Origin: Pseudomonas sp. KBW05
GTDB taxonomy: Bacteria; Pseudomonadota; Gammaproteobacteria; Pseudomonadales; Pseudomonadaceae
Assembly: GCF_003852405.1 (NCBI RefSeq)
Contig: NZ_QAJM01000016.1
Coordinates: 386,071 to 450,070, forward strand
DNA length: 64,000 nt
Direction of reading: 5' to 3'
Each line of letters starts with the position of its first letter. The first letter of the stretch is position 1. Shown here one piece after another: positions 8,610 through 31,100 of this stretch. Below the pieces are notes generated by a model, which had not been told where the DNA came from, did no database searches, and worked only from the letters and a program-made list of their open reading frames with translations. The translations under genes were made by a program, and so were the position numbers.

Positions 8610-8630
8610 TGCTCTGCTGCCCCTTCAAAC

Positions 8631-9167: not shown

Positions 9168-9179
9168 GATCGCCCTCGC

Positions 9180-9650
9180 TTAAATTTCAGCAGCCAGTTT
9201 GTTAACCAGCTCCGCGTGCGCGTTTTGATCGATTGTGGCACCCAGGATCTTCTCAGCACCGCCAACGGCCAGGGCACCCAGTTGGGCACGCAGCGCGTCT
9301 TTGACACTATTCAGTTCCTGCTCGATCTCGGCCTGAGCCTGAACCTTCACACGGTCAGCGTCGATACGGGCTTTTTCAACAGCCTCTTCAACAATCTGGT
9401 TACCGCGTTTCTTGGCTTGCTCAATGATTTCGGCTGCTTGAGCTTTCGCTTCGCGCAGTTGTTGACCCGCTTTATCTTGGGCCAACTCCAGGTCGCGAGC
9501 TGCTCGTGCTGCAGCGTCCAGTCCATCCGCAATCTTCTTCTGACGTTCGTGCAGAGCTGCGATGACCGGAGGCCATACGAACTTCATGCAGAAAACGACA
9601 AAAATCAAGAACGCTAAGGACTGACCAATAATGGTTGCATTAATGTTCAC
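9180..9650 (-). CDS. atpF: ATP synthase Fo subunit b
   Basis: Subunit b forms the peripheral stalk. One N-terminal membrane helix (about residues 5-27) precedes a long charged coiled coil. I chose the GTG start at 9650 ([14 protein letters not shown]), which gives 156 residues as in other pseudomonads. A GAGG Shine-Dalgarno lies upstream on the minus strand. An upstream in-frame extension has no such support. Confidence 0.95.
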
Positions 9651-9706
9651 GCCAATACCTCGCTCATTCGTTGCACAACACACCAATCACTCGAAAAGAC
9701 GAGTGA

Positions 9707-9979
<273 letters not shown>

Positions 9980-10098
9980 TTACGTCGTATGGTTTAGGTT
10001 TTTTAGATTTTAAAGCGGTAAAACAAATCGTTTCATAGCCCGGTAGGGCCTACCTTCCCGTTTTACCGGGAAGGACATCAGACTAGTCGAGACTGGTC

Positions 10099-11392
<1,294 letters not shown>

Positions 11393-11540
11393 CACTCTTG
11401 CTCCTCAATGGTCGGCTGCCGGAAATCAATAACTTGGCATAATTTGTGCCGACAAAATGCGCGCAGAGTATAGGGGCGGTTCTGCCCCTATTCAACTGCC
11501 GGGTAGTGATTTCCGATCACACGCTACATGAGTAAATGTT

Positions 11541-12413
11541 TCAGCGGATGTGGGCAAGGACGCCCTGCAGCTCATCGAGAGAGTTATAGCCGATGACCAA
11601 TTGGCCTTTGCCTTTCTTCCCGTGGCGAATCTGCACCGCAGAGCCTAGGCGTTCGGCCAGGCGCTGTTCGAGACGGGCGATATCCGGATCAGGTTTGCTC
11701 GTTTCGACCGGTGCAGGTTTGCCGCTCAGCCACTGGCGAACCAGGGCCTCGGTCTGACGAACGGTGAGCCCTCGTGCGACAACGTGTCGCGCCCCTTCAA
11801 CCTGTTGATTTTCCGGCAAACCCAGCAAAGCACGGGCGTGACCCATTTCCAGGTCGCCATGGGACAGCATGGTCTTGATGACTTCCGGCAAGGCGATCAG
11901 GCGCAGCAGGTTGGACACGGTCACGCGGGACTTGCCCACCGCGTCAGCCACTTGTTGCTGGGTCAGCTGGAATTCCTGCTGCAAGCGCTGCAACGCAATC
12001 GCTTCTTCGACCGGGTTGAGGTCTTCCCGCTGGATGTTCTCGATCAACGCCATGGCGATCGCGGTTTCATCCGGCACATCGCGCACCATCGCCGGGATGG
12101 TGTCCTTGCCGGCCTGCTGGCTGGCACGCCAGCGGCGCTCACCGGCGATGATCTCAAAGCGCCCGCCACCGATCGGGCGAACCACGATCGGCTGCATCAC
12201 GCCCTGGGCCTTGATCGAGTTGGCCAGTTCTTCCAGCGCCTGGGGGTCCATGTCCCGGCGTGGCTGGTATTTACCGCGCTGGATCAAGTCCAGGGGCAGG
12301 TGTTGCAGCTCGCGCTCGTCGGCCTGCACCGCTTGCTCTTCAAGCGATGTGACGGTCGGACCACTCAACAGTGCATCCAGTCCACGTCCGAGACCTCGTT
12401 TCTTGACGGCCAT
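11541..12413 (-). CDS. parB: Chromosome-partitioning protein ParB
   Basis: ParB binds parS sites near the origin and spreads as a CTP-dependent clamp for chromosome segregation. The 290-residue protein has the CTP-binding GERRWRA motif in the N-terminal domain. A helix-turn-helix follows (QQVADAVGKSRVTVSNLLRL), and a C-terminal dimerisation domain ends the protein. It starts 9 nt after parA, in a likely mnmG-rsmG-parA-parB unit. Its targets are the parS sites at 27944, 28574 and 31130. Confidence 0.97.
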   Translation of the reverse strand: MAVKKRGLGRGLDALLSGPTVTSLEEQAVQADERELQHLPLDLIQRGKYQPRRDMDPQALEELANSIKAQGVMQPIVVRPIGGGRFEIIAGERRWRASQQAGKDTIPAMVRDVPDETAIAMALIENIQREDLNPVEEAIALQRLQQEFQLTQQQVADAVGKSRVTVSNLLRLIALPEVIKTMLSHGDLEMGHARALLGLPENQQVEGARHVVARGLTVRQTEALVRQWLSGKPAPVETSKPDPDIARLEQRLAERLGSAVQIRHGKKGKGQLVIGYNSLDELQGVLAHIR

Positions 12414-12422
12414 GGGGATTCC

Positions 12423-13220
12423 TTAAGTTGGCTGGGCTGCAGCGGTGCGTGAGTTGCGGCGTTGACGGCGAACCATCTCGCCAGCCAGGGCCAGGTAGGC
12501 AATGGCGCCACGCGAGGATTTGTCGTACGCCAGCGCGGGCATGCCGTAGCTTGGCGCTTCGGCCAGACGGATGTTGCGCGGTATCACGGTGTCGTAGAGC
12601 TGGTCGCCAAAGTGTTCCTTGAGCTGTGCCGACACGTCGTTCATCAGGCTCAGGCGCGGATCGAACATGGTCCGCAACAGGCCTTCGATCTGCAGGTTCG
12701 GGTTGAGCAGCTCGGCGATGCGCTTGATGTTATCCACAAGGTCGCTCAAACCTTCCAGCGCGTAGTACTCGCACTGCATGGGGATAATCACCCCATCGGC
12801 CGCCACCAACGCATTCAGCGTGAGCATCGACAGCGACGGCGGGCAGTCGATCAAAATGTAATCGTAGTTCTCGCGGATCGGTGCCAAGGCGCTGCGCAGA
12901 CGGCTTTCTTTCATCTGCATTTCCAGCAGCACCACTTCCGCCGCGGTCAAATCGCGGTTGGCCGGCAGCAGTTGGTAACCACCGTGCTCGGAGAAGTGCA
13001 TGGCCTGGGCCAGGTCGCACTCGCCGATGAGCAAGTCGTAGACCGAGTTTTCCAGGCCGTGTTTATCCACACCGCTACCCATGGTGGCGTTGCCCTGTGG
13101 ATCGAGATCGATCAACAGCACCCGGCGCTTGGTAGCCACCAGGGATGCTGCGAGGTTGATGCAGGTGGTGGTTTTGCCCACGCCACCTTTCTGGTTCGCT
13201 ATCGCGAATACCTTAGCCAT
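12423..13220 (-). CDS. parA: Chromosome-partitioning ATPase ParA (Soj)
   Basis: A Walker-type ATPase that works with ParB to move origins. The deviant Walker A motif KGGVGKTT is at residues 11-18, and the YILIDCPPSLS segment follows later. I chose the ATG at 13220 (MAKVFAIANQKGG), giving 265 residues. Six extra in-frame codons upstream are not conserved family sequence. Two perfect DnaA boxes (12730 and 13063) lie inside the gene. Confidence 0.97.
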   Translation of the reverse strand: MAKVFAIANQKGGVGKTTTCINLAASLVATKRRVLLIDLDPQGNATMGSGVDKHGLENSVYDLLIGECDLAQAMHFSEHGGYQLLPANRDLTAAEVVLLEMQMKESRLRSALAPIRENYDYILIDCPPSLSMLTLNALVAADGVIIPMQCEYYALEGLSDLVDNIKRIAELLNPNLQIEGLLRTMFDPRLSLMNDVSAQLKEHFGDQLYDTVIPRNIRLAEAPSYGMPALAYDKSSRGAIAYLALAGEMVRRQRRNSRTAAAQPT

Positions 13221-13238
13221 TCTTGCTTGTGTTCCCAA

Positions 13239-13883
13239 TCATGCCGTGCGGCGCAGTATCAGCAGATGGCGTTGGCCTTGGCAACCGGGTACGGCCAAGG
13301 CGTGTTCGCTATCGAGGTGGAAGTCTGCCGGCAATGCTAACAGCTCGTCGCTTGGATGGACGCCCTTCATTGCCAGCCAGCGGGTGTCACGGTCGCCGAG
13401 GTGGCGAGTCCAGTTGCTGAAGTTCTCCATGCTGCTGAAGGCCCGGGAAACAATTCCGTTGAAGGGCTGTTCAGGCGTGAAGGCTTCGACGCGACTGTGG
13501 ATAACTTGCAGGTTATCCAACTTGAGTTCGAGTTTGACCTGGGTCAGGAAGCGGGTTTTCTTGCCGTTGCTGTCCAGGCAGGTCACTTGCGACTCGGGAA
13601 ACAGGATGGCCAATGGAATGCCAGGCATGCCGCCGCCACTGCCGACGTCGAGCCAGCGACCGTTTTCGATAAACGGCATCACGCTCAAGCTGTCGAGCAA
13701 GTGGCGTGAAACCATTTCGTCTGGATCACGCACGGCGGTCAGGTTGTAGGCCTTGTTCCATTTGATCAACAGGGCCAGGTAACCCAGCAGCAATTCGTGC
13801 TGGGCCGGGGTCAGGTCGACGCCCAACTGGCGCGCACCTGTGGATAACTCTTCGGCGTGTTGCGAGGTGACCAACGAACTCAA
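13239..13883 (-). CDS. rsmG: 16S rRNA (guanine527-N7)-methyltransferase
   Basis: RsmG (GidB) methylates G527 of 16S rRNA using S-adenosylmethionine. The SAM-binding glycine motif [15 protein letters not shown] is present, and the 214-residue length is normal. Its ATG overlaps the mnmG stop by 4 nt, so translation is probably coupled. Two perfect DnaA boxes (13496 and 13839) lie within it. Confidence 0.97.
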
Positions 13884-15775
13884 GCGCTTTGCTCCAACTG
13901 ACGGCCCGCGCCGCGTTTTTTCAAATGAATCATCAACAGCGAAATGGCTGCCGGGGTGACGCCGGGGATACGTGAAGCCTGGCCCAGGGTTTCTGGCCGA
14001 GTTATCCCCAGCTTGCTTTGAATTTCTTTCGACAACCCGGAAATCCCGGTGTAATCGATATCCACAGGCAGCTTGGTGTCTTCACTGGCGCGCAGGCGAG
14101 CGATCTCATCCTGCTGGCGATCGATGTAACCGGCGTACTTGGTCTTGATCTCGACCTGTTCGGCGACCTGTGGGTCTTCTGCGCCACCGCCGGTCACTTC
14201 GACCAGACCAGCGTAGTCGATTTCCGGGCGCGACAGCAGGTTGAGCAAGTTGTACTCGTGGGTCAGCGGCGTGCCGAATTTCTCGGCAATCGCATCGCCC
14301 TGCTCGGTGCCCGGGCGAACCCAGGTGCTTTTCAGGCGTTGCTCTTCCAGGGTGATGCTTTCGCGTTTCTTGCAGAAGGCTTCCCAACGCGCGTCATCGA
14401 CCAAGCCCAGCTCGCGACCTTTTTCGGTCAAGCGCAGGTCGGCGTTGTCTTCGCGCAGGATCAGACGGTATTCCGCCCGGGAAGTGAACATCCGGTACGG
14501 TTCCTGGGTACCCAGGGTAATCAGGTCATCCACCAACACGCCGATGTACGCTTCGTCGCGACGCGGGCACCAGCTGTCTTTGCCCTGTGCACGCAGTGCG
14601 GCGTTGGTCCCGGCCAGCAAACCTTGGGCGCCGGCTTCTTCGTAACCGGTGGTGCCGTTGATTTGGCCGGCGAAGAACAAACCGCCGATCACTTTGGTTT
14701 CCAGGCTGTACTTCAGGTCACGCGGATCAAAATAGTCGTACTCGATGGCGTAGCCCGGACGCACGATGTGCGCGTTTTCCATGCCACGAATCGATTGCAC
14801 GATCTGGATTTGCACGTCGAACGGCAGGGAAGTGGAAATGCCGTTCGGGTACAGCTCATGGGTAGTCAAGCCTTCGGGCTCGATAAAGACCTGGTGGCTT
14901 TCCTTGTCGGCAAAGCGGTGGATCTTGTCTTCGATCGACGGGCAATAACGCGGGCCAATACCTTCGATTACCCCGGAATACATCGGCGAACGGTCGAGGT
15001 TCGCGGCAATGATTTCGTGGGTACGCGCGTTCGTGTGGGTAATCCAGCAGCTCACCTGTTTCGGGTGCTGCTCTTTGGAACCCATGAACGACATCACCGG
15101 AATCGGTGTATCACCGGCTTGTTCGGTCATGACCGAGAAATCCACAGAACGCCCGTCGATACGCGGCGGGGTCCCGGTTTTCAGGCGACCGACGCGCAGC
15201 GGCAATTCACGCAGGCGTTTTGCCAGGGCAATCGACGGCGGATCACCGGCGCGACCGCCGGAATAGTTCTGCATACCTATGTGGATAAGTCCGCCGAGGA
15301 ACGTACCGGTGGTCAACACCACGGATTCTGCGAAGAAACGCAGGCCCATCTGAGTGACAACACCGCGTACCTGGTCTTGCTCGACGATCAGGTCATCCGC
15401 AGCTTGTTGAAATATCCACAGGTTCGGTTGGTTTTCCAGGGTTTCGCGTACAGCCGCCTTGTACAGGATGCGGTCGGCTTGTGCCCGAGTGGCACGCACG
15501 GCCGGGCCTTTACGGCTGTTCAGCACGCGAAATTGAATACCACCCTTGTCGGTAGCCATGGCCATCACGCCGCCAAGGGCGTCGATTTCTTTAACCAAAT
15601 GGCTTTTGCCGATCCCACCAATGGCGGGGTTGCAACTCATTGCACCGAGGGTTTCCACGTTGTGCGTGAGCAACAGGGTTTTTACGCCCATGCGTGCTGA
15701 CGCCAGTGCTGCCTCGGTACCGGCATGACCGCCGCCGATGACGATCACTTCAAAACGGGAAGGGAAATCCACCAC
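13880..15775 (-). CDS. mnmG: tRNA uridine-34 carboxymethylaminomethyl modification enzyme MnmG
   Basis: An FAD-dependent enzyme that, with MnmE, installs the cmnm5 group on wobble uridine 34. The dinucleotide motif [10 protein letters not shown] is at residues 14-23, and the [12 protein letters not shown] segment follows. The length of 631 is normal. The start is GTG at 15775, preceded by an AGGTG ribosome-binding site. A perfect DnaA box (15280) is inside. Its partner gene mnmE is not adjacent: an origin-like region and an iron-uptake cassette lie between them. Confidence 0.97.
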
Positions 15776-15844
15776 GCACCTCGTGCCTGCTTATGTAGGT
15801 AATCAGGAATTGTCTGTTGAAAGGGTTTTGGAGCTTTGGCGGCA

Positions 15845-15850
15845 AGTATA
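15845..15850 (-). promoter_or_regulatory. Candidate -10 element for the mnmG operon
   Basis: On the minus strand the hexamer TATACT lies about 70 nt upstream of the mnmG start. The region 17 nt further upstream (TTCTTT) is a poor -35 match, so this is a weak call based on the -10 alone. Confidence 0.3.
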
Positions 15851-16101
15851 GGGACTTAGCCCTTCCTAAAGAACCCTTTGCACAAAATTTAACCAGCTGT
15901 GGATGAATCACAGACAATAGAAATTAAAAGAGAGAAATTTATTAAATCTTTGTTTTTATGTTTATTTCTACTGAGCCTACTTTCTGTGGATAGATCTCTA
16001 CAGGCCTTTATTTACGTTGTGTACAGCGATTCAAAAGTCTGTGGTCATGTGCCAATGAGGGCCTTGGATAAGTGCTTTAAGCCTGTGGATTAAACAGGTG
16101 G

Positions 16102-16110
16102 TTATCCACA
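16102..16110 (+). promoter_or_regulatory. DnaA box (perfect)
   Basis: Exact TTATCCACA in the mnmG-proximal intergenic region, with several near-matches around it. Confidence 0.8.
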
Positions 16111-16297
16111 GACGGGTTTATCTTCAGTTTTCAAGCCCTGTTATCAACTGGGCACAGGGGCGGTTATTCACAGGGCTTAATCCACAGAAATCGATGAATC
16201 GCTGGGTATTTCGGGCGTAACGAAGCCGCCGTAATCTTTCGATTCGCAGCTGGGCACGTAAAAGAGAGACCTATTGTGAGAAAACCGCAGTGCAGTT

Positions 16298-16316
16298 AAT
16301 AATAGCGATTATCATT
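16298..16316. promoter_or_regulatory. Fur box upstream of the FecI-type sigma gene
   Basis: AATAATAGCGATTATCATT resembles the 19-bp Fur consensus GATAATGATAATCATTATC, with the right half nearly exact. It ends 20 bp before the sigma-factor start, as expected for iron repression of a FecI-type regulator. Confidence 0.75.
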
Positions 16317-16335
16317 AACCTGCCTGTCGCGCCCT

Positions 16336-16842
16336 ATGTCCCCTCCTTCACACACGGCCGCCGTCCAGCACATCTACGAACAGCACCATTCGTGGCTGCA
16401 GGGATGGCTCAAAGGCAAATTGCATGACGCTTGCGATGCGGCCGACGTAGCACACGATACGTTTGTGCGAATCCTGGCCGGGCGCCATGCTGCGCAGATC
16501 ATGGAACCGCGTGACTATCTGGCGACCATTGCCAGAGGCCTGGTGATCGACCGTTATCGTCGGCATGCCGTCGAACAGGCTTATAAGCAAACCCTGGCCG
16601 AGCGCCCTGACGCCACAGCCATCAGTGAAGAAGACAAGGCAATCATCATCGAAACCCTGGTGGCTGTGGATAAAGCACTGTCTGGCCTGGGGGAGCGAGC
16701 GCGGCGGATTTTCATGCTGTCGCAGATCGACGGGCTGACTTATCAACAAATCGCCGATCAACTGCAGGTTTCCCTGACCACCGTGAAAAAACACATGGTC
16801 CGCGCGCTGACCGAGTGCGCGTTGATCATGGCCAGCCTCTGA
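16336..16842 (+). CDS. FecI-family ECF sigma factor (iron uptake)
   Basis: A 168-residue ECF sigma factor. Region 2 lies at about 10-75 (DAADVAHDTFVRILAGR, with the promoter-recognition helix YLATIARGLVIDRYRR). Region 4 lies at about 110-160 (LTYQQIADQLQVSLTTVKKH). The order sigma, FecR-type anti-sigma, TonB-dependent transducer and the upstream Fur box point to cell-surface signalling for a siderophore. The expected target is the receptor gene at 17877. The stop overlaps the next start by 1 nt. A perfect DnaA box (16665) lies inside. The specific siderophore is unknown. Confidence 0.92.
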   Translation: MSPPSHTAAVQHIYEQHHSWLQGWLKGKLHDACDAADVAHDTFVRILAGRHAAQIMEPRDYLATIARGLVIDRYRRHAVEQAYKQTLAERPDATAISEEDKAIIIETLVAVDKALSGLGERARRIFMLSQIDGLTYQQIADQLQVSLTTVKKHMVRALTECALIMASL

Positions 16843-17786
16843 TGGCAGCGCCTGACCGCAAGACCTTCGAGGCGGCTGCCAGCTGGTATGTGCAGTTTCA
16901 GTCACAACCGCCAACACCTGCCGAACGATACGCCTGGCAACAATGGCTCAATGGCGATCCGTCTCATCAAGCGGCGTGGAACCAGATGGAACAATTGCAG
17001 CGCAGTCTTGGTGCCCTGCCCCAGGACGTTACCCGCCGAGCCTTGTCGACCACGCAACAACGCCGGGAGGTGCTCAAGTGGATGCTGGCACTCGGCGGCG
17101 CTGGGTATCTCGGTTGGAATGTTCAGCAACACACGCCCCTGGGCAACGTATGGGCCGACTACCGCACTGCTGTAGGACAGCGGCGGCGTATCGAACTGGC
17201 CGATGGAACGCAGATTGACCTCAATACCGGCACCGCCATCGATGTCGCGTTCGATGGACGCCAGCGCCTGATTCGTCTGCGCGAAGGTGAAGTACTTATC
17301 CACACCGGTAAATTGGGTGGCCAAACGCCCTTTTATGTCGACACTCGCCAAGGCCGGGTCCAGGCATTGGGTACGCGGTTCAGCGTACGCCAACTGGCGG
17401 ATTCCACCCGGGTCGGTGTGTTGGAGGACACGGTAAGCGTGTCGCCAGGTGATCAGCCTTCACACCGCCGTGTGCTCGTCGCCGGCGAAAGTGCTGACTT
17501 CGATCGGCAGAACGTCGGACCGGATCAACAGTATTTTCGTACTCAAGCTGCTTGGGTTGATGGCCAGTTGATCGTTTTGGACGCCCGCCTTGGTGACGTC
17601 ATCGACGAACTGGCCCGTTACCGCCCCGGCACCCTCCAGTGCGACCGGGCTTCGCAGCGCCTGCGCGTGTCCGGCACGTTTCGCCTGGATTCCACCGATG
17701 CCGTGCTGGCCAACCTGCAGGCGACGCTGCCGATCCAGGTGAAATACTTCACCCGCTATTGGGTGTCGGTGCAGCGAATCGGCTGA
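16842..17786 (+). CDS. FecR-family anti-sigma regulator
   Basis: A 314-residue transmembrane regulator that relays the signal from the outer-membrane transducer to the sigma factor. The N-terminal cytoplasmic domain (about 8-50, ASWYVQFQSQPPTPAERYAW) resembles the sigma-binding domain of the family. RRxxLKWxLALGG at 74-86, a twin-arginine-like motif, leads into a short membrane segment. The periplasmic FecR domain (about 110-205) and a C-terminal signalling domain follow. I chose the ATG at 16842 because it overlaps the sigma stop (TGATG). A DnaA box at 17296 lies inside. Confidence 0.92.
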   Translation: MAAPDRKTFEAAASWYVQFQSQPPTPAERYAWQQWLNGDPSHQAAWNQMEQLQRSLGALPQDVTRRALSTTQQRREVLKWMLALGGAGYLGWNVQQHTPLGNVWADYRTAVGQRRRIELADGTQIDLNTGTAIDVAFDGRQRLIRLREGEVLIHTGKLGGQTPFYVDTRQGRVQALGTRFSVRQLADSTRVGVLEDTVSVSPGDQPSHRRVLVAGESADFDRQNVGPDQQYFRTQAAWVDGQLIVLDARLGDVIDELARYRPGTLQCDRASQRLRVSGTFRLDSTDAVLANLQATLPIQVKYFTRYWVSVQRIG

Positions 17787-17876
17787 CAAAAAAATAGTCC
17801 ACAAGGGGGTTATCTTTTTTCTACCTGGCGCGGCCCTACAGGTAATTACGACGCAACCTTCAGGGCTTCCTCACAC

Positions 17877-20303
17877 ATGCGCCTTCCTAACCAGCTTCGC
17901 CAGCGACTCTCCTGCCACGGCATTACGTACGGTCTACTGTTGAGCGCCGCCACTGCCGTCGGGGTGTTCCTGCCTTCCAGTGCGATGGCTGCGCACTACA
18001 GCATTGCCGCCGGCCCGCTGGACAGCGCCTTGAGCCAATTCGCCGCCAGGGCCAATATCATTCTGTCTTTTTCCCCACAGCAAACCGCACGATTGCGCAC
18101 TCCGGGGTTGGTTGGGGATTACTCGGTAGAGCAGGGTTTCGCACAGCTACTGCGTGAATCTGGCCTACAAGCCGTCGTCCAGGCGCCGGGCAGTTATGTA
18201 TTACAAGCCGCACCCACCGGGGAATTGACGTTGGCCCCGACCACCATCAGTACTTATCAACAGGCTGGTTTCACTCAAGAGATCGCCGGGGACGTCGGCT
18301 ACAAGGCACAAAACAGTCGGGTCGGCACCAAGACCAGTACGCCTTTGTCGGAAACCCCGCGTTCGGTATCAGTAGTCACCGGACAGCGCATCAAGGACCA
18401 GAAGTCCCAGACCCTGACCGAAGTGCTCGGTTATGTGCCCGGTATCTTCGCACCGCCGTTCGCTGCCGGTGATGGTCTGGCGGGTGACCTGTTTTTCATT
18501 CGCGGTTTCAACGCCACCGATTACGGCTACGGATTGCTGCGCGATGGCCTACGCGTACAAGGCAATCGGTACGACACTACCAGCGAGCCCTATGGCCTGG
18601 AACGGGTCGAGATCTTCCGTGGCCCGTCGTCCCTGCTTTATGGCGAAAACGCTCCCGGCGGCCTGGTGAACCTGGTGAGCAAGCACCCAACCGCTGCGCC
18701 ACAGGGCGAGGTGCAACTGGGTTATGGCTCGAATAACCGTCGCCAACTGGGTGTGGATATCTCCGGCCCGCTCACGGATGCCGGCAATATCCTGGGTCGC
18801 GTGGTGATGCTTGGCCGCAAGTCTGAGACCCAAACGGACCATGTCCCGGATGACCGCCTCTACATCGCGCCGTCCCTGACCCTGAATTTCGACGATTACA
18901 ACACCCTGACGCTGTTGGCCAACTACCAGAAAGACCACACCAACCTGGAGCTTGGCTTACCCGCCGCGGGCACTTTGCTGACCAACCCGAATGGCAAGTT
19001 ATCCAAGCACACCATGCTCGGTGATCCGGACTGGAACACCTTTGAGCGGGAAGCCTGGAGCACCGGCTACGAGTTCAGTCACAGCTTCAACGACGAATGG
19101 CAGTTCCGCCAGAACTCGCGTTACATGCAGTCACGCATCAACCGTCATGAGACCTGGCCGGGCGACCTGAACAACCAAGGCTTCGGCACTCAGCTGAACA
19201 TGAACGCCTACGACCGCTACAACAAGTCGATGGTGTACTCCCTGGATAACCAACTGGAAGGAAAATTCCAGCTGGGCGAACTGGAAAACACTGTGCTGTT
19301 CGGCGCGAGCTACGACCGGACCTCGTTCAACCAGGATTGGGACGCTGGTTTCGCCGGAACCATCAATGTGTATAACCCGGTTTACCTGCGCGAACCGACC
19401 ACACCGCTCGCTATCCAAAACACCCTGCTGGAACAGCAGATGAAAGGGGTTTATGCACAGATCCAGAGTAAGTATGACCACTGGTTGTTCTTGCTTGGCG
19501 GTCGTCAGGATTGGGTAGACAGTGACTTCCGCGACAAGGTGAAGCCTTCGACCGACTCCAGCACCACGGAACAGAAGTTCACCTACCAAGGTGGCGTGAT
19601 GTACCAATTCGACAACGGCCTGACGCCGTATGTCAGCTACTCCACCGCATTTGTGCCGGTGCAGCAGATCTCGGTGACAGGCTCACCGCTCAAGCCGATC
19701 ACCAGTCGTCAATACGAAGTGGGTTTGAAGTACGAGCCGATTGGCTGGGACACGGCGATGACACTGTCGGTGTATGACTTGCGCAAGGAGGACGATACCT
19801 ACCTCGATTCCACGACCAACACGTACCGCCAAGTGGGCGAGAGTCGCGCCAAAGGTGCGGAAGTCGAGATCAACAGCAACCTCACGCCGAACCTGAATGT
19901 GACGGCGGCTTACACCTATACCGACGCTCGGATAACCAAGGATACGGTCGGTTCCCTGGTAGAAGGCCGGCAGATGACGGGAGTTCCCCGCAACCAGGCG
20001 TCGATCTGGGGCAAATACCGCATGCTCGATGGCCCACTCAAGGGGCTGTCTTTTGGCGGCGGCGTGCGTTACTTCGACAGCGCGTTTTCCTACAGCAAGC
20101 CGAGCTTGTACGGCAAGCTCGACCCTGGAAGCGTCACATTGGTGGATGCGGTTGTGGGTTATCAGATCGACCCGCACTGGTCGCTGGACCTGAACGCCAA
20201 GAACCTGTTCGACAAAGAATATGTGTCAGGGTGCAACGATGCGGGGCGTTGCTACTGGGGCGACAGCCGTACCTTGCTGGGTACGGTGTCGTATAACTGG
20301 TAA
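17877..20303 (+). CDS. TonB-dependent siderophore receptor / signal transducer
   Basis: An outer-membrane ferric-siderophore receptor of 808 residues. A signal peptide ends near residue 38 (SSAMA). The N-terminal STN signalling domain (about 40-110, YSIAAGPLDSALSQFAARAN) marks it as a transducer that talks to the FecR protein. The plug domain (about 155-270) and 22-strand barrel follow, ending in the aromatic VSYNW. Two Cys near the C terminus (SGCNDAGRC) occur in FhuA/FiuA-type hydroxamate receptors, so a ferrichrome-like ligand is possible but unproven. Expression is probably driven by the upstream ECF sigma factor. Confidence 0.92.
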   Translation: MRLPNQLRQRLSCHGITYGLLLSAATAVGVFLPSSAMAAHYSIAAGPLDSALSQFAARANIILSFSPQQTARLRTPGLVGDYSVEQGFAQLLRESGLQAVVQAPGSYVLQAAPTGELTLAPTTISTYQQAGFTQEIAGDVGYKAQNSRVGTKTSTPLSETPRSVSVVTGQRIKDQKSQTLTEVLGYVPGIFAPPFAAGDGLAGDLFFIRGFNATDYGYGLLRDGLRVQGNRYDTTSEPYGLERVEIFRGPSSLLYGENAPGGLVNLVSKHPTAAPQGEVQLGYGSNNRRQLGVDISGPLTDAGNILGRVVMLGRKSETQTDHVPDDRLYIAPSLTLNFDDYNTLTLLANYQKDHTNLELGLPAAGTLLTNPNGKLSKHTMLGDPDWNTFEREAWSTGYEFSHSFNDEWQFRQNSRYMQSRINRHETWPGDLNNQGFGTQLNMNAYDRYNKSMVYSLDNQLEGKFQLGELENTVLFGASYDRTSFNQDWDAGFAGTINVYNPVYLREPTTPLAIQNTLLEQQMKGVYAQIQSKYDHWLFLLGGRQDWVDSDFRDKVKPSTDSSTTEQKFTYQGGVMYQFDNGLTPYVSYSTAFVPVQQISVTGSPLKPITSRQYEVGLKYEPIGWDTAMTLSVYDLRKEDDTYLDSTTNTYRQVGESRAKGAEVEINSNLTPNLNVTAAYTYTDARITKDTVGSLVEGRQMTGVPRNQASIWGKYRMLDGPLKGLSFGGGVRYFDSAFSYSKPSLYGKLDPGSVTLVDAVVGYQIDPHWSLDLNAKNLFDKEYVSGCNDAGRCYWGDSRTLLGTVSYNW

Positions 20304-20308
20304 AGCGC

Positions 20309-20317
20309 TGTGGATAA
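20309..20317 (-). promoter_or_regulatory. DnaA box (perfect) in a 19-bp convergent gap
   Basis: Exact TGTGGATAA (TTATCCACA on the minus strand) lies between the convergent stops of the receptor gene and mnmE. Confidence 0.7.
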
Positions 20318-20322
20318 CTCGG

Positions 20323-21693
20323 CTATTTGCCGATGCAGAAACTGGAAAAGATCCGCCCCAACAAATCATCAGAGCTAAATGCCCCGGTGATTTCCCCCAA
20401 CAGCTGCTGCGCCTGGCGTAAATCTTCGGCCAGCAGCTCTCCTGCGCCCGCCAAGGTCAGCTGTGCCCGACCATGTTCCAGCGCCGCGCTGGCATGGCGC
20501 AGCGCCTCCAGGTGCCTGCGGCGCGCACTGAAGCTGCTTTCCGAGGTCTGCTCGTAGCCCATGCAGGCCTTGAGATGGTCGCGAAGCAGTTCCAGGCCAT
20601 CACCCGCTGACTTGGCGCTCAGGCTGATGGTGACGTGGCCATCCTCGCTGGTTTCCATGGCAATCGCCTCGCCCGTCAGGTCAGCCTTGTTACGGATTAA
20701 CGTGACTTTGGCCGGGTCTGGCCGCTGTTCGAGGAATTCCGGCCACAGGGCAAAGGGGTCCACTGCCTCAGGCGCGGTGGCATCCACCACCAGCAACACG
20801 CGATCGGCCTCACTGATGGCCTTGAGCGCCCGTTCCACGCCGATTTTCTCGACCTGGTCATCCGTATCACGCAAACCGGCGGTGTCGACCACATGCAGCG
20901 GCATGCCATCGATGTGGATATGTTCGCGCAGGATATCCCGCGTCGTGCCGGCAATCTCAGTGACGATCGCCGCTTCGCGCCCTGCCAGGGCGTTGAGCAG
21001 GCTGGATTTGCCGGCATTGGGGCGCCCGGCGATCACCACGGTCATGCCATCACGCAGCAAGGCACCCTGCCCGGCTTCGCGCAGCACTGTGGATAATTCC
21101 TCGCGGACTTTATCCAGCATCGCCAGCACGTGGCCATCGGCGAGGAAGTCGATTTCCTCTTCGGGAAAATCAATCGCCGCCTCGACATAGATGCGCAAGC
21201 TGATCAGTTGCTCGGTCAAGTTATGCACACGCAGGGAAAACGCGCCCTGCAACGAGCGCAACGCATTACGCGCAGCCTGTGCAGAACTGGCCTCGATCAA
21301 GTCGGCAATCGCTTCGGCCTGGGCCAGGTCGAGCTTGTCGTTGAGAAACGCGCGCTCGCTGAATTCCCCCGGCCGCGCCAGGCGGCAGCCCAATTGCAGG
21401 CAGCGTTGCAGCAACATATCCAGGACGACCGGGCCACCGTGGCCCTGCAATTCCAGGACATCTTCACCGGTAAACGAATTTGGCCCTGGGAAATAAAGGG
21501 CCAGGCCTTCGTCCAACACGCTTTTGTCAGCATCCAGGAAGGGGCCGTAATGTGCGTACCGCGGTTTCAACTCCCGCCCGCTGATGGCCTGGGCAGCCAC
21601 ACCGGCAAGCGGCCCGGAAATACGCACAATACCGACACCGCCGCGACCTTGAGCGGTAGCGACAGCAGCGATGGTTTCACGAGGAGCACTCAT
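20323..21693 (-). CDS. mnmE: tRNA modification GTPase MnmE
   Basis: Partner of MnmG in cmnm5 modification of wobble uridine. The protein has an N-terminal formyl-THF-binding domain and a helical domain. An inserted G domain carries the P-loop [11 protein letters not shown] and NKAD-type motifs. The C-terminal motif CIGK provides catalytic Cys453. With the ATG at 21693 ([11 protein letters not shown]) the protein is 456 residues, the usual length; six upstream codons are possible but unlikely. A DnaA box (21088) lies inside. Confidence 0.97.
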
Positions 21694-21728
21694 CAGCAGG
21701 TTCCAGAACAAAAGTGACGGAAAGCAAA

Positions 21729-21747
21729 ACGCCCCACTAGGGGGCGT
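21729..21747 (-). terminator. Terminator after yidC
   Basis: A 7-bp GC-rich stem (ACGCCCC paired with GGGGCGT) encloses the loop ACTAG. On the minus strand TTTTGCTTT follows. It lies between yidC and mnmE. Confidence 0.75.
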
Positions 21748-21772
21748 CTTGAGTGGTTACCCACAGAGTAAA

Positions 21773-23476
21773 TTACGCTTCGGCTTTTTTGGTAGCCGCT
21801 TCGATTTTACGTGTGATGTACCACTGTTGAGAGATCGACAACACGTTGTTGACTACCCAGTACAGCACCAGACCAGCTGGGAACCACAGGAAGAAGAAGG
21901 TGAAGATGATTGGCATCATTTTCATTACCTTGGCCTGCATCGGATCCGGCGGAGTCGGGTTCAGACGCTGCTGGATAAACATGGTCGCGCCCATGATGAT
22001 CGGCAGAATAAAGAACGGGTCTTTGATCGACAGGTCAGTAATCCACAGGATGAACGGCGCCTGGCGCATTTCCACGCTTTCCAGGAGAACCCAGTAAAGC
22101 GACAGGAATACTGGCATCTGTACCAGAATCGGCAAGCATCCACCCAGCGGGTTGATCTTCTCTTTCTTGTACAGCTCCATCATGGCCTGCGACATTTTCT
22201 GCCGGTCGTCACCATGTTGCTCTTTCAACGCTGCCAGTTTCGGCGCCACGGCACGCATGCGCGCCATCGACTTGTAGCTGGCTGCCGACAGAGGGAAGAA
22301 GATCCCTTTGATCAGCATGGTCAAGAAGATGATCGAGAAGCCCCAGTTACCGACGATGCTGTGGATATGTTGCAGCAGCCAGAAAATCGGCTGGGCAATG
22401 AACCACAGAATGCCGTAGTCCACAGTCAGTTCCAGACCTGGGGACAACTCTTTGAGCACAGCCTGGCTTTTCGGGCCGGCGTACAGAGTGGCGCTGGTTT
22501 CAGCCTTGGCACCTGGTGCGACGGTCAACGCCGGGCCAGTGTAGCCAATGATGTAGTTGCCTTTGGTGTCCTTGCGCGCCGCAACCAGGTTGTTCTGGCC
22601 AGGCTGAGGAATCCACGCGGTCACGAAGTAGTGTTGCAACCAAGCAACCCAGCCGCCGTTCACGTTGTAGGTGATCGGTGCCTTTTGTTTGTCTTCGGCA
22701 ACCTTGTCGATATCTTTCATCGACACTTTTTTGTACGGCTCCGAACTTGTCCACAGGGCAGCGCCCAGGTAAGTCGCGGTGCCAGTAGCGGTGCTGGACG
22801 ACGGATCGGAGCTGGCATCACGCTTGAGCTGGGCAAACATTGCGCCAGTCCAAGGCTGCGCGCTCTGGTTGTCGATCAAGTAGGTGACAACGATGTCGTA
22901 CAGACCGCGTTTCAGAGTGAAACGCTTGATGTAGTTGACGCCATCCTTGCTGAACTTAAGGTCGACGACCAACTGGTCCTGGCCATCGGCCAGCTGATAA
23001 CTCTTCTTCTCCGAGGAGAAAACCGGACGACCGGTAGGGCTCGCATCAGGGCCGTTGGTGCCGATCAAGCCACTTTGAGCCTGATAAACACGTTCGCCAC
23101 CGTTATCGAACAACTGGAATGGAATTTCCGGGTGATCCTGACGACGCGGGTACAGAGGAAGTGTCAGTTTGGCGACATCGCCACCTTGCGGGTCGATAGC
23201 CAGGTCCAATACATCCGTTTTTACCTGGATGAGGTCTGTGCTGGCGGCAACTGGTACTTCGGCGGGTGCGTTTGTTTCGCCCGCTGCGCGTGGAATGTCA
23301 TCACTGGCGGCAGTGTTGGTGCCACTCACTGTATCGGGAAGCCCCGCTGGAACAGCATTGGCAGCAACATTCTGAGTCGGCAGGGCAGCTTGGCCGTAGT
23401 CCTGGTTCCAATTAAGGACCATGACGTAGGACACGATTGCCAGGGCGACGATCAGGATCGTGCGTTTAATATCCAT
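21773..23476 (-). CDS. yidC: Membrane protein insertase YidC
   Basis: An insertase of the inner membrane that works alone or with SecYEG. The 567-residue protein has an N-terminal membrane anchor (about 5-22). A large periplasmic domain follows, with a variable Ala/Pro-rich linker near residues 35-80. Five conserved C-terminal membrane helices end in a Lys-rich tail (TRKIEAATKKAEA). It starts 2 nt after yidD, in the conserved rpmH-rnpA-yidD-yidC order. Confidence 0.97.
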   Translation of the reverse strand: MDIKRTILIVALAIVSYVMVLNWNQDYGQAALPTQNVAANAVPAGLPDTVSGTNTAASDDIPRAAGETNAPAEVPVAASTDLIQVKTDVLDLAIDPQGGDVAKLTLPLYPRRQDHPEIPFQLFDNGGERVYQAQSGLIGTNGPDASPTGRPVFSSEKKSYQLADGQDQLVVDLKFSKDGVNYIKRFTLKRGLYDIVVTYLIDNQSAQPWTGAMFAQLKRDASSDPSSSTATGTATYLGAALWTSSEPYKKVSMKDIDKVAEDKQKAPITYNVNGGWVAWLQHYFVTAWIPQPGQNNLVAARKDTKGNYIIGYTGPALTVAPGAKAETSATLYAGPKSQAVLKELSPGLELTVDYGILWFIAQPIFWLLQHIHSIVGNWGFSIIFLTMLIKGIFFPLSAASYKSMARMRAVAPKLAALKEQHGDDRQKMSQAMMELYKKEKINPLGGCLPILVQMPVFLSLYWVLLESVEMRQAPFILWITDLSIKDPFFILPIIMGATMFIQQRLNPTPPDPMQAKVMKMMPIIFTFFFLWFPAGLVLYWVVNNVLSISQQWYITRKIEAATKKAEA

Positions 23477-23478
23477 GA

Positions 23479-23724
23479 TTACTCGGCCATCGAAGAAGAA
23501 CGGGAGGTAGGGATAGGCGGAACCGGGTCATAACCACCGGGATTCCACGGATGACAGCGACCTAAACGACGAAAGGTCAGCCAGCCACCGCGCAGAAGAC
23601 CATGATTTTCTATGGCCTCTAACGCGTAGCAGGAACAACTGGGGTAGAAACGACAGTGGTTGGCCATCAGGGGACTAATGGCATAGCGGTAAAACTGGAT
23701 CGGAACGATTGCCAGTTTACGCAT
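23479..23724 (-). CDS. yidD: Membrane protein insertion efficiency factor YidD
   Basis: A small 81-residue protein thought to assist YidC-dependent insertion. The conserved core is FYRYAISP followed by the Cys-rich [15 protein letters not shown], with the typical [12 protein letters not shown] end. The start overlaps the rnpA stop by 8 nt, suggesting coupled translation. Confidence 0.93.
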
Positions 23725-24121
23725 CAGGACTGTCTACCCCTACAGTTTCGGTGCTGACTGCTGGTGCTGGCTTGTTGGTACGCGCCAAACGTTTCCAGAG
23801 CTTGCCGAAATGCTGAATCAATTCGGGGTTTTCTACGTCCCCCAAGCCTTTGCGCGCGACGATAACAATATCCCAACCAACCAGAGTGTCCTGGTGGAGG
23901 CGAAACGATTCGCGCATCAGACGCTTGAGGCGATTGCGCTCAACGGAGAGCTTTACGCTCTTCTTGCCGATCACCAACCCGAGACGGGGGTGATCCAGAT
24001 CGTTGTTACGCGCAAGGAGCAGGAGATTTTTCCCCGGAACCTTGCCGGTGGGGGAGTCAAAGACTGCCTTGAAGTGCCGGGGGGTTAGCAGACGCTTTTC
24101 CCGACTGAAGTCCTGACTCAC
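23717..24121 (-). CDS. rnpA: Ribonuclease P protein component
   Basis: The protein subunit of RNase P, which processes tRNA 5' ends. The family RNR motif reads [17 protein letters not shown] chose a GTG start at 24121 ([18 protein letters not shown]), giving 134 residues; an adjacent GTG at 24124 is equally possible. The longer open frame upstream overlaps rpmH and is not used. The gene is 16 nt downstream of rpmH. The C-terminal tail ([17 protein letters not shown]) is low-complexity. Confidence 0.93.
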
Positions 24122-24137
24122 CACAGGTACCGGATTA

Positions 24138-24272
24138 TCAAACTGCCAGACGTGCACGACCTTTGGCGCGACGACGCGACAGGACAGCACGGCCGTTCTT
24201 GGTAGCCATGCGAGCACGGAAACCGTGGGTGCGGGCGCGTTTGATGGTGCTTGGTTGGAAAGTACGTTTCAT
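24138..24272 (-). CDS. rpmH: 50S ribosomal protein L34
   Basis: The 44-residue, highly basic ribosomal protein L34. It starts [20 protein letters not shown] and ends in RARLAV. Length and sequence are typical of the family. It is the first gene of the rpmH-rnpA-yidD-yidC unit, which reads away from the origin region. Confidence 0.98.
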
Positions 24273-24333
24273 GGCGTTGTTACCTGGTTCGTCCACAACG
24301 GGCCGGAATGGCCCCCGTTTTAAGAGACCGGCG

Positions 24334-24362
24334 ATTCTAGAGAAAGCAAGCCTCTAGGTCAA
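24334..24362 (-). promoter_or_regulatory. Sigma-70 promoter of rpmH
   Basis: On the minus strand, -35 TTGACC (24357-24362) and -10 TAGAAT (24334-24339) are separated by exactly 17 bp. The start of transcription would be about 50-55 nt upstream of the rpmH ATG. It is one of the best promoter matches in the window and reads away from oriC. Confidence 0.8.
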
Positions 24363-24519
24363 TTTCCAACCAGCTTTTCCTTCAATTAGATCTCTATAGG
24401 GCAAAGCGTCCTTTTCTATCCGCTCGGCTTTCACGGGTAATGCCATAGATATAAAAATAAAGAAGGAAGTTATTTAAAGCTTTTCTGTAAAGCTTATAAA
24501 AGCTAGGGCGGCGATCATC

Positions 24520-24528
24520 TGTGGATAA
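24520..24528 (-). promoter_or_regulatory. DnaA box (perfect), oriC
   Basis: TGTGGATAA on plus, next to the AT-rich unwinding candidate. Confidence 0.85.
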
Positions 24529-24636
24529 CTGCCTTGAGGCCATATTCCACCTGATGTACAGAGAATGACAACACGGGGGAGAAACTGGGCTCTGCCTGTG
24601 CTGCACTGTCGGATAAGCTGTGGGTGGAATGGGTTG

Positions 24637-24645
24637 TTATCCACA
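24637..24645 (+). promoter_or_regulatory. DnaA box (perfect), oriC
   Basis: TTATCCACA, followed 6 nt later by the variant TTACCCACA. Confidence 0.85.
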
Positions 24646-24698
24646 GGCCAGTTACCCACAGACTTTCGCCCCCACTTGTACAACGACCTTAGGTGCGC

Positions 24699-24707
24699 TT
24701 ATCCACA
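24699..24707 (+). promoter_or_regulatory. DnaA box (perfect), oriC
   Basis: TTATCCACA, followed 4 nt later by the variant TTATGCACA. Confidence 0.85.
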
Positions 24708-24783
24708 GAGCTTATGCACAGACCATTGGTCGCTTTTTTTGTGGTTAACGCGTTGATTTTGGCTGCCTTGTGCGCAACCTACA

Positions 24784-24814
24784 TGTGGATAAGTGGGCAG
24801 CGCGCCGCTACAAT
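24784..24814 (+). promoter_or_regulatory. Candidate dnaA promoter with a DnaA box at the -35 region
   Basis: A good -10 hexamer, TACAAT (24809-24814), lies 45 bp before the dnaA GTG. The position of its -35 region coincides with the perfect DnaA box TGTGGATAA (24784-24792), and no strong -35 is seen. DnaA bound there would block its own transcription, the familiar autoregulation pattern. Confidence 0.5.
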
Positions 24815-24858
24815 GGCGGCTGTTTTTGCCTCACCGGCTTTCAACTTAGGGGATATCC

Positions 24859-26370
24859 GTGTCAGTGGAACTTTGGCAGCAGTGCGTGGAGCTTTTGCGC
24901 GAGGAGCTGCCTGCCCAGCAATTCAACACCTGGATCCGTCCACTACAAGTCGAAGCCGAAGGCGACGAGTTGCGTGTCTACGCACCCAATCGGTTTGTTC
25001 TCGACTGGGTCAACGAGAAGTACCTGAGCCGCGTTCTCGAGTTGCTCGACGAACACGGTAACGGCGTCGCGCCCGTGCTCTCCTTATTAATAGGTAGCAA
25101 ACGCAGCTCCGCCCCTCGTGCTGCGCCGAATGCGCCGCTGGCGGCTGCCGCTTCGCAAGCCCAGGTCGCGACTGCACCGGCTGCGCCGGCTCCAGCCCCC
25201 GCGCCATCCAAGTCCTCCGCGCAAAAAAGCGCGCCTGAGAACGAGGAACCGTCACGCGACAGCTTCGATCCGATGGCTGGCGCCAGCTCCCAGCAAGCAC
25301 CGGTTCGCGCCGAACAGCGCACCGTGCAAGTCGAAGGCGCGCTCAAGCACACCAGCTACCTGAATCGTACCTTTACCTTTGAGAACTTTGTCGAAGGTAA
25401 ATCCAACCAGCTGGCCCGCGCCGCTGCCTGGCAGGTCGCCGACAACCCCAAGCATGGTTACAACCCGCTCTTCCTTTATGGTGGCGTTGGCTTGGGTAAG
25501 ACCCACTTGATGCACGCTGTGGGTAACCACCTATTAAAGAAGAACCCGAATGCCAAGGTCGTGTACCTGCACTCGGAGCGCTTCGTGGCTGACATGGTCA
25601 AGGCCTTGCAGCTGAACGCCATCAACGAGTTCAAACGGTTCTACCGTTCCGTTGATGCCTTGCTGATCGATGACATTCAATTCTTCGCGCGCAAGGAACG
25701 TTCCCAGGAAGAGTTCTTCCACACCTTCAACGCCCTGCTCGAAGGCGGCCAACAGGTCATCTTGACCAGTGACCGCTACCCGAAGGAAATCGAAGGCCTG
25801 GAAGAGCGCTTGAAGTCGCGCTTCGGCTGGGGCCTGACCGTTGCGGTAGAGCCGCCGGAACTGGAAACCCGCGTCGCGATCCTGATGAAAAAGGCTGACC
25901 AGGCGAAGGTCGACCTGCCCCACGACGCTGCCTTCTTTATCGCCCAGCGCATTCGTTCCAACGTGCGCGAGCTGGAAGGCGCACTCAAGCGGGTCATCGC
26001 CCACTCGCACTTCATGGGCCGCGATATCACCATCGAGCTTATTCGCGAATCCCTGAAAGACCTGCTGGCGCTGCAAGATAAACTGGTGAGTGTGGATAAC
26101 ATTCAGCGCACGGTTGCCGAATACTACAAAATCAAGATTTCCGACCTGCTCTCCAAGCGCCGTTCGCGCTCGGTGGCACGTCCACGGCAAGTGGCCATGG
26201 CGCTCTCCAAAGAGTTGACCAACCACAGCCTGCCGGAAATCGGCGATGTGTTTGGTGGCCGCGATCACACCACCGTGTTGCACGCGTGCCGCAAGATTAA
26301 CGAACTCAAGGAATCCGACGCGGATATTCGCGAGGACTACAAGAACCTGCTGCGTACACTGACAACGTGA
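24859..26370 (+). CDS. dnaA: Chromosomal replication initiator DnaA
   Basis: The AAA+ initiator that binds DnaA boxes and opens oriC. Domain I covers about 1-85 ([20 protein letters not shown]). A long Ala/Pro-rich domain II linker spans about 90-150. The AAA+ domain has Walker A GGVGLGKT at 208-215 and a LLIDDIQFF Walker B. The C-terminal helix-turn-helix contains [13 protein letters not shown]. The GTG start is preceded by AGGGG at 24848. The 503-residue length fits pseudomonads. A perfect DnaA box (26091) lies inside the gene. Confidence 0.98.
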
Positions 26371-26408
26371 TGACACCAGCGCAGCTTATTAAGGCAAGGG
26401 ACTAGACC

Positions 26409-27512: not shown

Positions 27513-27522
27513 TAGAAGCTAG

Positions 27523-31048
<3,526 letters not shown>

Positions 31049-31068
31049 TCCAGGCATACCGCTAAACC

Positions 31069-31100
31069 AAAAAGGCCAACGCTTAGCGTTGGCCTTTTTT
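31069..31100 (+). terminator. Terminator after gyrB
   Basis: A 9-bp GC-rich stem (GGCCAACGC paired with GCGTTGGCC) with loop TTA, flanked by an A-run before and a T-run after. It works for gyrB and could act on the opposite strand too. Confidence 0.93.

Follow-up and report, generated by a model that had tools for sequence, protein, structure and literature searches.

Exact DnaA boxes crowd around the replication origin of Pseudomonas and probably form a DnaA titration field

The chromosome of Pseudomonas sp. KBW05 carries a field of exact DnaA boxes around its putative origin, whose density falls with distance from oriC and which is conserved among relatives, with boxes replaced at held density in one distant relative. 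Judging from these sequence comparisons, the boxes probably constitute an origin-proximal titration field for DnaA. We infer that DnaA binds the field boxes, that it is titrated there and that refiring is prevented. The original prediction invoked selection acting across tens of kilobases, either for titrating DnaA or for the architecture of an origin domain; this agrees with our data, and titration appears to be the better-supported function.

Box counts and their distribution along the chromosome

The window, i.e. the whole stretch of 64,000 nt that was analysed (NZ_QAJM01000016.1, positions 386,071-450,070), contains 24 exact copies of TTATCCACA on its two strands, a sequence that Table 1 of PMC4285127 gives as the P. 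putida box of high affinity. Dinucleotide shuffling of the window predicts 0.14 boxes, with a top count of 3 among 100 shuffles, and Markov models of order 2, 3 and 4 predict 0.16, 0.26 and 0.92. Fifteen of the 24 lie at 12730-26099, two each in parA and rsmG, one each in mnmG, a FecI-type sigma gene, a fecR-type gene, mnmE and dnaA, and six between genes. The number and coordinates of all 24 had been predicted exactly, as had the gene placement of these fifteen and the box-free stretch from 54.6 to 64 kb: past 54570, where the last box ends, the remainder of the window holds no exact box. At the left edge the excess continues, with 7 further exact boxes up to 11.2 kb left of base 1. The features are listed below, with conservation given for 35 relatives, for the eight of these picked for their long contigs (wide relatives), or for the aligned cases.

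2877..54570, no strand assigned: the portion of the DnaA-box field that falls in the window (24 exact boxes), with an extension left of base 1
2877..2885, +: box in glmU, kept in 4/7 aligned wide relatives
4051..4059, -: box in glmU, kept in 7/8 wide relatives
12730..12738, +: box in parA, kept in 27/35 relatives
13063..13071, +: box in parA, kept in 28/35 relatives
13496..13504, -: box in rsmG, kept in 29/35 relatives
13839..13847, -: box in rsmG, in-frame TTA TCC ACA, kept in 18/35, alone not exceptional
15280..15288, -: box in mnmG, kept in 34/35 relatives
15870..16190, no strand assigned: second origin-like element upstream of mnmG, with the AT-richest 60-mer of the window (15911, 82% AT), 1 perfect and 5 one-mismatch boxes
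16102..16110, +: intergenic box in the mnmG-upstream element, kept in 5/6 aligned
16665..16673, -: box in the FecI-type sigma gene of a fecI-fecR-receptor cassette, kept in 2/2 aligned
17296..17304, +: box in the fecR-type gene of the same cassette, kept in 1/2 aligned
20309..20317, -: intergenic box flanked by the receptor gene and mnmE, kept in 1/2 aligned
21088..21096, -: box in mnmE, in-frame TTA TCC ACA, kept in 26/35 relatives
24420..24858, +: oriC-like DNA upstream of dnaA, with an AT-rich 60-mer at 24441 (77% AT), 4 perfect and 3 one-mismatch boxes
24520..24528, -: box upstream of dnaA, kept in 6/6 aligned
24637..24645, +: box upstream of dnaA, kept in 6/6 aligned
24699..24707, +: box upstream of dnaA, kept in 6/6 aligned
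24784..24792, -: box upstream of dnaA, kept in 7/7 aligned
26091..26099, -: box in dnaA, kept in 28/35 relatives
34641..34649, +: intergenic box, kept in 4/4 aligned
41017..41025, +: box beside trkA, where the sole ORF is weak (106 aa), kept in 4/5 aligned
41134..41142, +: box in trkA, kept in 4/7 aligned
46254..46262, +: intergenic box upstream of dprA, kept in 4/4 aligned
46851..46859, +: box in dprA, kept in 6/7 aligned
53803..53811, -: box in the choline-sulfatase gene, kept in 4/6 aligned
54562..54570, +: box in the choline-sulfatase gene, kept in 1/6 aligned

Nearby genes are presumably dnaN, recF and gyrB, names that we assigned from gene order. A search for RNA families found none at gathering thresholds in the window, L100, L105 and L106, and no tRNAs were found in L100, L101 and L105-L108.

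Genome-wide there are 137 exact boxes, and the nearer to oriC, the denser they are: 0.53/kb up to 15 kb away, then 0.37 at 15-30 kb, 0.10 at 30-50 kb and 0.04 at 50-100 kb. The other contigs of this genome have 0.016/kb, so that the density near oriC is not matched away from the origin. In the 60 kb around oriC, 27 true boxes compare with a mean of 0.11 for permuted motifs. Taken together, shuffles, Markov models, codon shuffles and permuted motifs rule out chance or composition as the source of the boxes. Whole-chromosome counts were made in three relatives assembled as single contigs, G032 (for which places are those of the xG subset, 74/133), G020 and G012. The first 3% of both arms holds 31 of the 84 boxes of G020 and 19 of the 50 of G012, and the last fifth of the arms, near the terminus, has 1.6-3.6/Mb in G032 (xG subset) and G020 and 0-2.2/Mb in G012, or roughly 2/Mb across the three. 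In G032 the density drops out to about 1.2 Mb from the origin; in G012 the long slope past the first 3% falls short of significance (p 0.053). Near oriC there is likewise an excess of one-mismatch variants whose change is at positions 1-5 (28 in 60 kb versus 14 in 243 kb), whereas variants changed in the last two letters show none (0 versus 6 in the same intervals), a pattern that fits DnaA binding as the selected trait.

Conservation, turnover and codon-level tests

Among the eight wide relatives, 127 of 158 aligned box cases are kept, compared to 52.1 predicted from words of equal GC content. All 36 genus genomes have a 29-100-fold core excess (median 40), figures for which core stretches of 18.4-20 kb were taken as 20 kb and genome sizes were rounded. 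Among the best 80 of 586 confirmed matches, which lean to close relatives, 54 named Pseudomonas loci carry 1-19 boxes each, with a median of 6.7 per 10 kb; these loci and the 36 genomes may overlap, and L245, a bin titled Pseudomonas sp. with 74% identity, was counted among other gammaproteobacteria. G012, the most divergent relative, keeps only 2 of 11 aligned boxes and still carries 19 boxes per 100 kb, where permuted motifs give 0.14. Since positions are lost there while density is held, density itself seems to be under selection, with the proviso that turnover at held density is clear in G012 only and that the relatives share ancestry, so that the counts are not phylogenetically independent.

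Most of the field lies in coding DNA; besides the genes of the core, the boxes at 2877, 4051, 41134, 46851, 53803 and 54562 are within called genes too. Counting genes with their midpoint up to 30 kb from oriC, as called by a simple, purpose-made gene caller, there are 18 coding boxes, including the one at 41017 with its weak ORF, whereas shuffling synonymous codons inside each gene leaves about 1.06. Of the 529 Leu codons in ten genes of the region, just 11 are TTA. Among the seven coding boxes tested, five rank in the top 4% for conservation when compared with words of the same gene and frame at equal amino acids, and the seven combined give p 2e-5, or p 5e-5 given the same amino acids. The boxes do not vanish while the codons stay, and conservation of the protein sequence or of slow genes is not supported as a cause, given the same-frame windows with identical amino acids and the equal-GC words. 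The selection claimed in the original prediction is supported by the gradient, the codon-shuffle null, conservation beyond same-frame and equal-GC words, and the density of G012 despite turnover.

Titration and its alternatives

In a titration field, DnaA would occupy the perfect boxes strewn over about ±30 kb around oriC, which the replication forks would duplicate early, after no more than a few percent of the replication period. Free DnaA would drop immediately as the field doubled, and new origins would be blocked from refiring until resynthesis of DnaA had filled the field again. Such a function would hang on how many boxes lie close to oriC, whatever their exact place, so any gene may host boxes, and these would be held against synonymous drift while being losable and replaceable. 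A search of 34 genomes for SeqA (PF03925) found none, with the E. coli control detected. Its absence as the sole cause of the field is not supported, since other families lack it too and have few boxes: in 20 genomes outside the family but within the order, the count near mnmG is 1-3 in 16 genomes, 0 in 2 and 5-6 in 2, and SeqA is missing in all 9 of the 20 that were searched. Several points count against titration, among them the missing lagging-strand bias and the non-significant long slope of G012. Hda is present, so that RIDA could do the job assigned to the field. ChIP-seq in E. coli found only 13 of the 32 perfect boxes occupied, with a preference for pairs spaced by 2-3 bp (PMC11317965). 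In that species single boxes often go unbound, and the boxes of the field are single, which argues against strong binding to them.

Two elements in the window resemble an origin. Only 24420-24858 combines an AT-rich element with a DnaA-box array near dnaA, making it the candidate origin, and Yee and Smith reportedly found in 1990 that the Pseudomonas origin adjoins dnaA. Of 36 genomes, 35 have the AT-richest 60-mer of the core in the mnmG-upstream element, about 8.5 kb away, where 3-8 boxes are exact or off by one letter. Both recall the box arrays of an oriC orisome in their AT-rich DNA and box arrays, but the Pseudomonas field reaches far past them, mostly into coding DNA. An extended, bipartite oriC with the boxes between the elements as part of the orisome would draw on the presence of both across the genus, and on the title of Jiang et al. 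2006 on two putative P. aeruginosa origins (as cited in PMC4285127); this reading covers 12.7-26.1 kb, leaving out the excess at 15-50 kb from oriC and the chromosome-wide gradient, and we regard it as quite improbable. The same pair of elements would suit an origin-domain architecture, in which dispersed DnaA-bound boxes bridge or loop the origin region, or store DnaA for orisome assembly, together with ParB/parS and without lowering free DnaA. The field is centred near oriC and includes parA and two exact matches to the parS core motif, at 27945 and 28575. However, neither spacing nor orientation is constant among the 24 boxes of the window, boxes turn over in G012, and a density that in G032 keeps falling as far as about 1.2 Mb out suits dosage more than local structure, which makes architecture as the main function unlikely.

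The boxes might instead control the transcription of genes close to the origin, as promoter elements regulated by DnaA or as roadblocks. Those at 16102, 20309, 24520-24784, 34641 and 46254 are indeed intergenic, and the literature describes regulation of dnaA by DnaA (PMC8203912) and roadblocking (PMC11317965), but the 18 coding boxes occur in both orientations and positions are replaced in G012 with density held, so transcription control seems improbable as a general explanation. That the field is a compositional or protein-coding side effect, or reflects slow evolution near the origin, we consider highly improbable: no supporting point was found, and the permuted motifs as well as the codon-shuffle, same-frame and equal-GC controls speak against it.

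Relation to E. coli systems and wider meaning

DnaA boxes accumulate near the origin in E. coli and Salmonella (PMC12371093), and an initiator-titration model has been described (PMC5835720). The Pseudomonas field shares the excess around oriC beyond composition, for which early titration of DnaA after initiation would be the simplest reading, but compared to the broad bias in E. coli (PMC12371093) it is sharper and built from single boxes. As in a titration region in the E. coli sense, the boxes exceed uniform and permuted-motif controls and are conserved among related genomes, but a lagging-strand preference is not seen in G032 (xG subset), G020 and G012: leading to lagging counts are 35:37, 50:29 and 21:27, with no consistent bias and with G020 by itself leaning to the leading strand (p 0.024). 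There is no clear signal of E. coli-type double boxes with a gap of 2-3 bp, the mean best partner matching 3.35/8 positions versus 2.77-3.26 at six control gap pairs, and a partner match of 6/8 occurring for 2 of 31 boxes, equal to gaps 5-6.

E. coli datA is described as a box cluster that titrates DnaA and promotes DnaA ATP hydrolysis (PMC11317965). Outside the window and away from oriC, a tight array of 3-5 exact boxes (criterion, at least 3 in 700 bp) lies near a gbcA-like gene in 25 of 30 genomes scanned, the gene being present in 31 of 57 genomes with G008 left out of the scan; in the stretches fetched from G024, G026, G003, G001 and G012 there are fewer than 3 boxes in 700 bp. Like datA, it is an origin-distal cluster whose position is kept among relatives; it differs in its spacings of about 150-180 bp. 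In datA, an IHF site lies between the boxes, and the IHF consensus has no match at the array in the 13 loci scanned.

It is possible, if tentative, that the main guard against refiring in Pseudomonas, where SeqA was not found, is a position-free titration selected for density, made of isolated boxes in synonymous freedom and a datA-like array near the gbcA-like gene. If so, an initiation timer would be encoded as a gradient of motif density rather than in fixed loci. It has been debated for decades whether chromosomal boxes control initiation through titration, and the E. coli signal is diffuse; the putative sponge described here is sharp and countable. Since most of its boxes lie in coding sequence, where synonymous recoding would leave the protein intact, the titration model is directly testable in a tractable Pseudomonas. 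The field also appears to be a clear case of a non-coding function, with exact position apparently free, selected within coding sequence.

The fecR-type gene offers a natural control on a small scale. Five other FecR matches in this genome (G000, E <= 1e-60) have no exact box within 4 kb, whereas the origin-side cassette has one box in its sigma gene and one in its fecR gene. The comparison is suggestive, though the cases are few.

Box distribution around the origin

The original prediction had located 24 exact 9-nt DnaA boxes (TTATCCACA) in the window, and a recount returned all of them in place, with 15 between 12730 and 26099 (nine coding and six intergenic, as predicted). The anticipated excess over chance was also borne out, since dinucleotide shuffling gave a mean of 0.14 and Markov models of order 2-4 an expectation of 0.16-0.92. 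PMC4285127 lists TTATCCACA as the high-affinity DnaA box of P. putida. By NCBIfam, genes of the core region encode ParB and ParA family proteins, RsmG, MnmG, MnmE, YidC and DnaA, the cassette between mnmG and mnmE a FecI-type sigma factor, a FecR-type regulator and a TonB siderophore receptor, and the flanks GlmU, TrkA, DprA and choline-sulfatase. Among the matches listed, the closest ParA proteins in named records were from Pseudomonas, where five loci, headed by P. palleroniana, reach 99% identity.

Features in the window and its genome
Window 15870-16190: mnmG-upstream element, the second to look like an origin, holding a box array and the window's AT-richest 60-mer
Window 16336-20303: fecI-fecR-TonB receptor cassette, between mnmG and mnmE
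Window ORF 27523-28626: contains exact parS cores at 27945 and 28575
Contig C10:78566-79089 (locus L100:12567-13090): five exact boxes in ~520 bp, all oriented alike, on the downstream side of a gbcA-like gene

In the draft genome (6.52 Mb, 69 contigs) we found 137 exact boxes versus 27 for the reversed motif. A genome-wide count, proposed as a check on the original prediction, did not reveal similar density away from the origin; density drops with distance from oriC, the putative origin upstream of dnaA. The densest spot on the other contigs has 8 boxes per 13.5 kb, versus 15 at the core.

Exact boxes on the window's contig, outward from oriC
Nearest 30 kb: 16 boxes, 0.53/kb
Next 30 kb: 11 boxes, 0.37/kb
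Then 40 kb: 4 boxes, 0.10/kb
Following 100 kb: 4 boxes, 0.04/kb
Following 118 kb: 4 boxes, 0.034/kb
Outermost 200 kb counted: 5 boxes, 0.025/kb
All remaining contigs, pooled: 0.0155/kb

In three single-contig relatives box density likewise peaks over the initial 1.5-3% of the arms and is lower beyond, falling from 254 to 1.8/Mb in G020, from 195 to 2.2/Mb in G012 and from 143 to 1.6/Mb in G032 (74 xG sites out of 133). Past the first 3%, 53/59 sites in G032 and 41/53 in G020 lie in the origin half; the 20/31 in G012 are not significant (p 0.053).

Throughout 36 genomes of the genus, the core stretch of 20 kb contains 5-18 boxes, a density 29-100 times that found elsewhere in the genome concerned, and core and remaining counts are correlated (Spearman 0.58). 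Whole-genome counts reached three times those of the reversed motif or more in 33/36 (exceptions G014, G027 and G028), and in a 150-genome sample of the genus every genome was listed with a match, low cases such as G077 (16 vs 9) among them. Among 80 named loci around parA (the best 80 of 586 matches), median boxes per 10 kb were 6.7 for 54 Pseudomonas loci (1-19 per locus), 2.2 for four Stutzerimonas loci and 0.96 for 22 others, with 0.05-0.08 per locus for permuted motifs. In other families of the order, 18/20 genomes have at least one exact box within the 11-20 kb fetched around mnmG, counts across the 20 being only 0-6, and local density in those 18 still exceeds that of the rest of the genome. 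In E. coli MG1655, the 50 kb surrounding oriC hold two exact boxes (25058 and 25238 of locus L170), adjoining the annotated oriC at 25001-25232. Thus, the dense field is a Pseudomonas trait atop a weaker general tendency.

Selection on box sites

The predicted selection on the sites is well supported. When synonymous codons were shuffled within genes, the called coding DNA up to 30 kb from oriC was expected to retain 1.06 boxes, versus 18 observed (one in a weak ORF). The seven coding core sites in parA, rsmG, mnmG, mnmE and dnaA are each kept in 18 to 34 of 35 genus relatives. Fisher's combination of the seven gives 2e-5, or 5e-5 given identical amino acids; sites 13839 and 13063 taken singly are unexceptional against same-gene, same-phase words in the 35 relatives.

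Share of same-gene, same-phase words conserved at least as well as the box (in brackets, given identical amino acids)
parA 12730: 0.093 (0.032)
parA 13063: 0.067 (0.124)
rsmG 13496: 0.028 (0.034)
rsmG 13839: 0.231 (0.168)
mnmG: 0.005 (0.022)
mnmE: 0.009 (0.017)
dnaA: 0.048 (0.026)

Nor do the sites vanish in relatives: across eight, with 100-180 kb fetched from each, 127/158 alignable site-by-genome cases are identical versus 52.1 expected from 1500 control words of equal GC count (kept/aligned: G032 22/24, G017 26/31, G034 21/23, G029 18/21, G005 15/15, G020 13/18, G003 10/15, G012 2/11). G012, which at 88% ranks last among the 35 relatives in MnmG identity, retains few positions but has 19 boxes per 100 kb versus a mean of 0.14 for permuted motifs; here box density outlasts box position.

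Probable titration and the two origin-like elements

The array upstream of dnaA comprises four perfect and three one-mismatch boxes, and its AT maximum (77%) is matched at one other place in the window, 56691. The mnmG-upstream element has six boxes with at most one mismatch (one perfect, five one-mismatch); its layout recurs across the genus, and in 35/36 genomes the 60-mer with the highest AT content in the fetched core is found upstream of mnmG. A 2006 paper cited in PMC4285127 reportedly described two putative P. aeruginosa origins. Such a double origin-like core, with origin-like elements upstream of both genes, would be an unlikely and partial rival reading for the boxes there, and fails to reach the boxes farther out.

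The original prediction offered titration or origin-domain architecture, and we consider origin-proximal DnaA titration, with moderate confidence, the best explanation of the field. The box layout close to oriC is what the titration model predicts: the first 3% of the arms hold 31/84 boxes in G020, 19/50 in G012 and 15/74 in the G032 xG subset, and forks crossing this stretch would double them, creating many new DnaA sinks at once after firing. An E. coli paper argues titration likewise, for a box bias broader than the Pseudomonas field (PMC12371093). The system is a variant of an already known kind, DnaA-box accumulation near the origin; titles and abstract openings among the matches listed did not mention such a field around a Pseudomonas origin, which is weak evidence for novelty.

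The weakest link in the titration reading is binding at single boxes. The 31 boxes within 45 kb are single, and the best partner match at 2-3 bp spacing averaged 3.35 of 8 versus 2.77-3.26 at control gaps; this differs from E. coli, where 13/32 perfect boxes were bound and pairs at 2-3 bp predominate (PMC11317965). Single perfect boxes would either suffice for Pseudomonas DnaA, or be bound briefly and act by number. One-mismatch variants altered at positions 1-5 are overrepresented close to oriC, where 60 kb hold 28, versus 14 over 243 kb; ATATCCACA and TTACCCACA are examples, each with 5 near and 0 far. Changes at position 6 (4 versus 3) or 7 (2 versus 6) show less enrichment or none; those changed in the last two letters are not enriched (0 in 60 kb versus 6 in 243 kb).

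Regarding other guards against refiring, SeqA also protects E. coli, according to PMC11317965. SeqA (PF03925) was found in 0/34 genomes, 23 of them in the genus, with a positive E. coli control; the 11 outside the genus include nine of the 20 few-box genomes, so SeqA loss alone gives no field. Hda is present (289 bits), and RIDA-like inactivation therefore probably acts beside titration.

Other box clusters and neighbouring features

The gene just upstream of the C10 array is presumably gbcA, encoding a Rieske oxygenase. Three to five exact boxes in 700 bp occur near the gbcA-like gene in 25/30 genomes scanned, in several of them ~2-8 kb from it with similar box spacing. The gene lies ~0.33 Mb from oriC in G020, 0.5-0.66 Mb in G032, G017, G034 and G005, and 1.1 Mb in G029; in G003 (0.48 Mb) it has no array. 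The array resembles datA in kind and is a candidate datA-like locus.

In G020, six exact boxes lie within 1.2 kb ~51 kb from oriC (C1:1670089-1671290, locus L107). Several boxes distant from oriC on contigs C2, C22, C51, C55 and C69 of the window's genome form close pairs, 13-60 bp apart and mostly opposed (e.g. C69:430879/430895), perhaps regulatory sites. FecR matches above 60% identity (E <= 1e-60) adjoin mnmG only, in 10/36 genus genomes. The cores at 27945 and 28575 we take to be parS from the motif, and the ORF containing them is recF by gene order.
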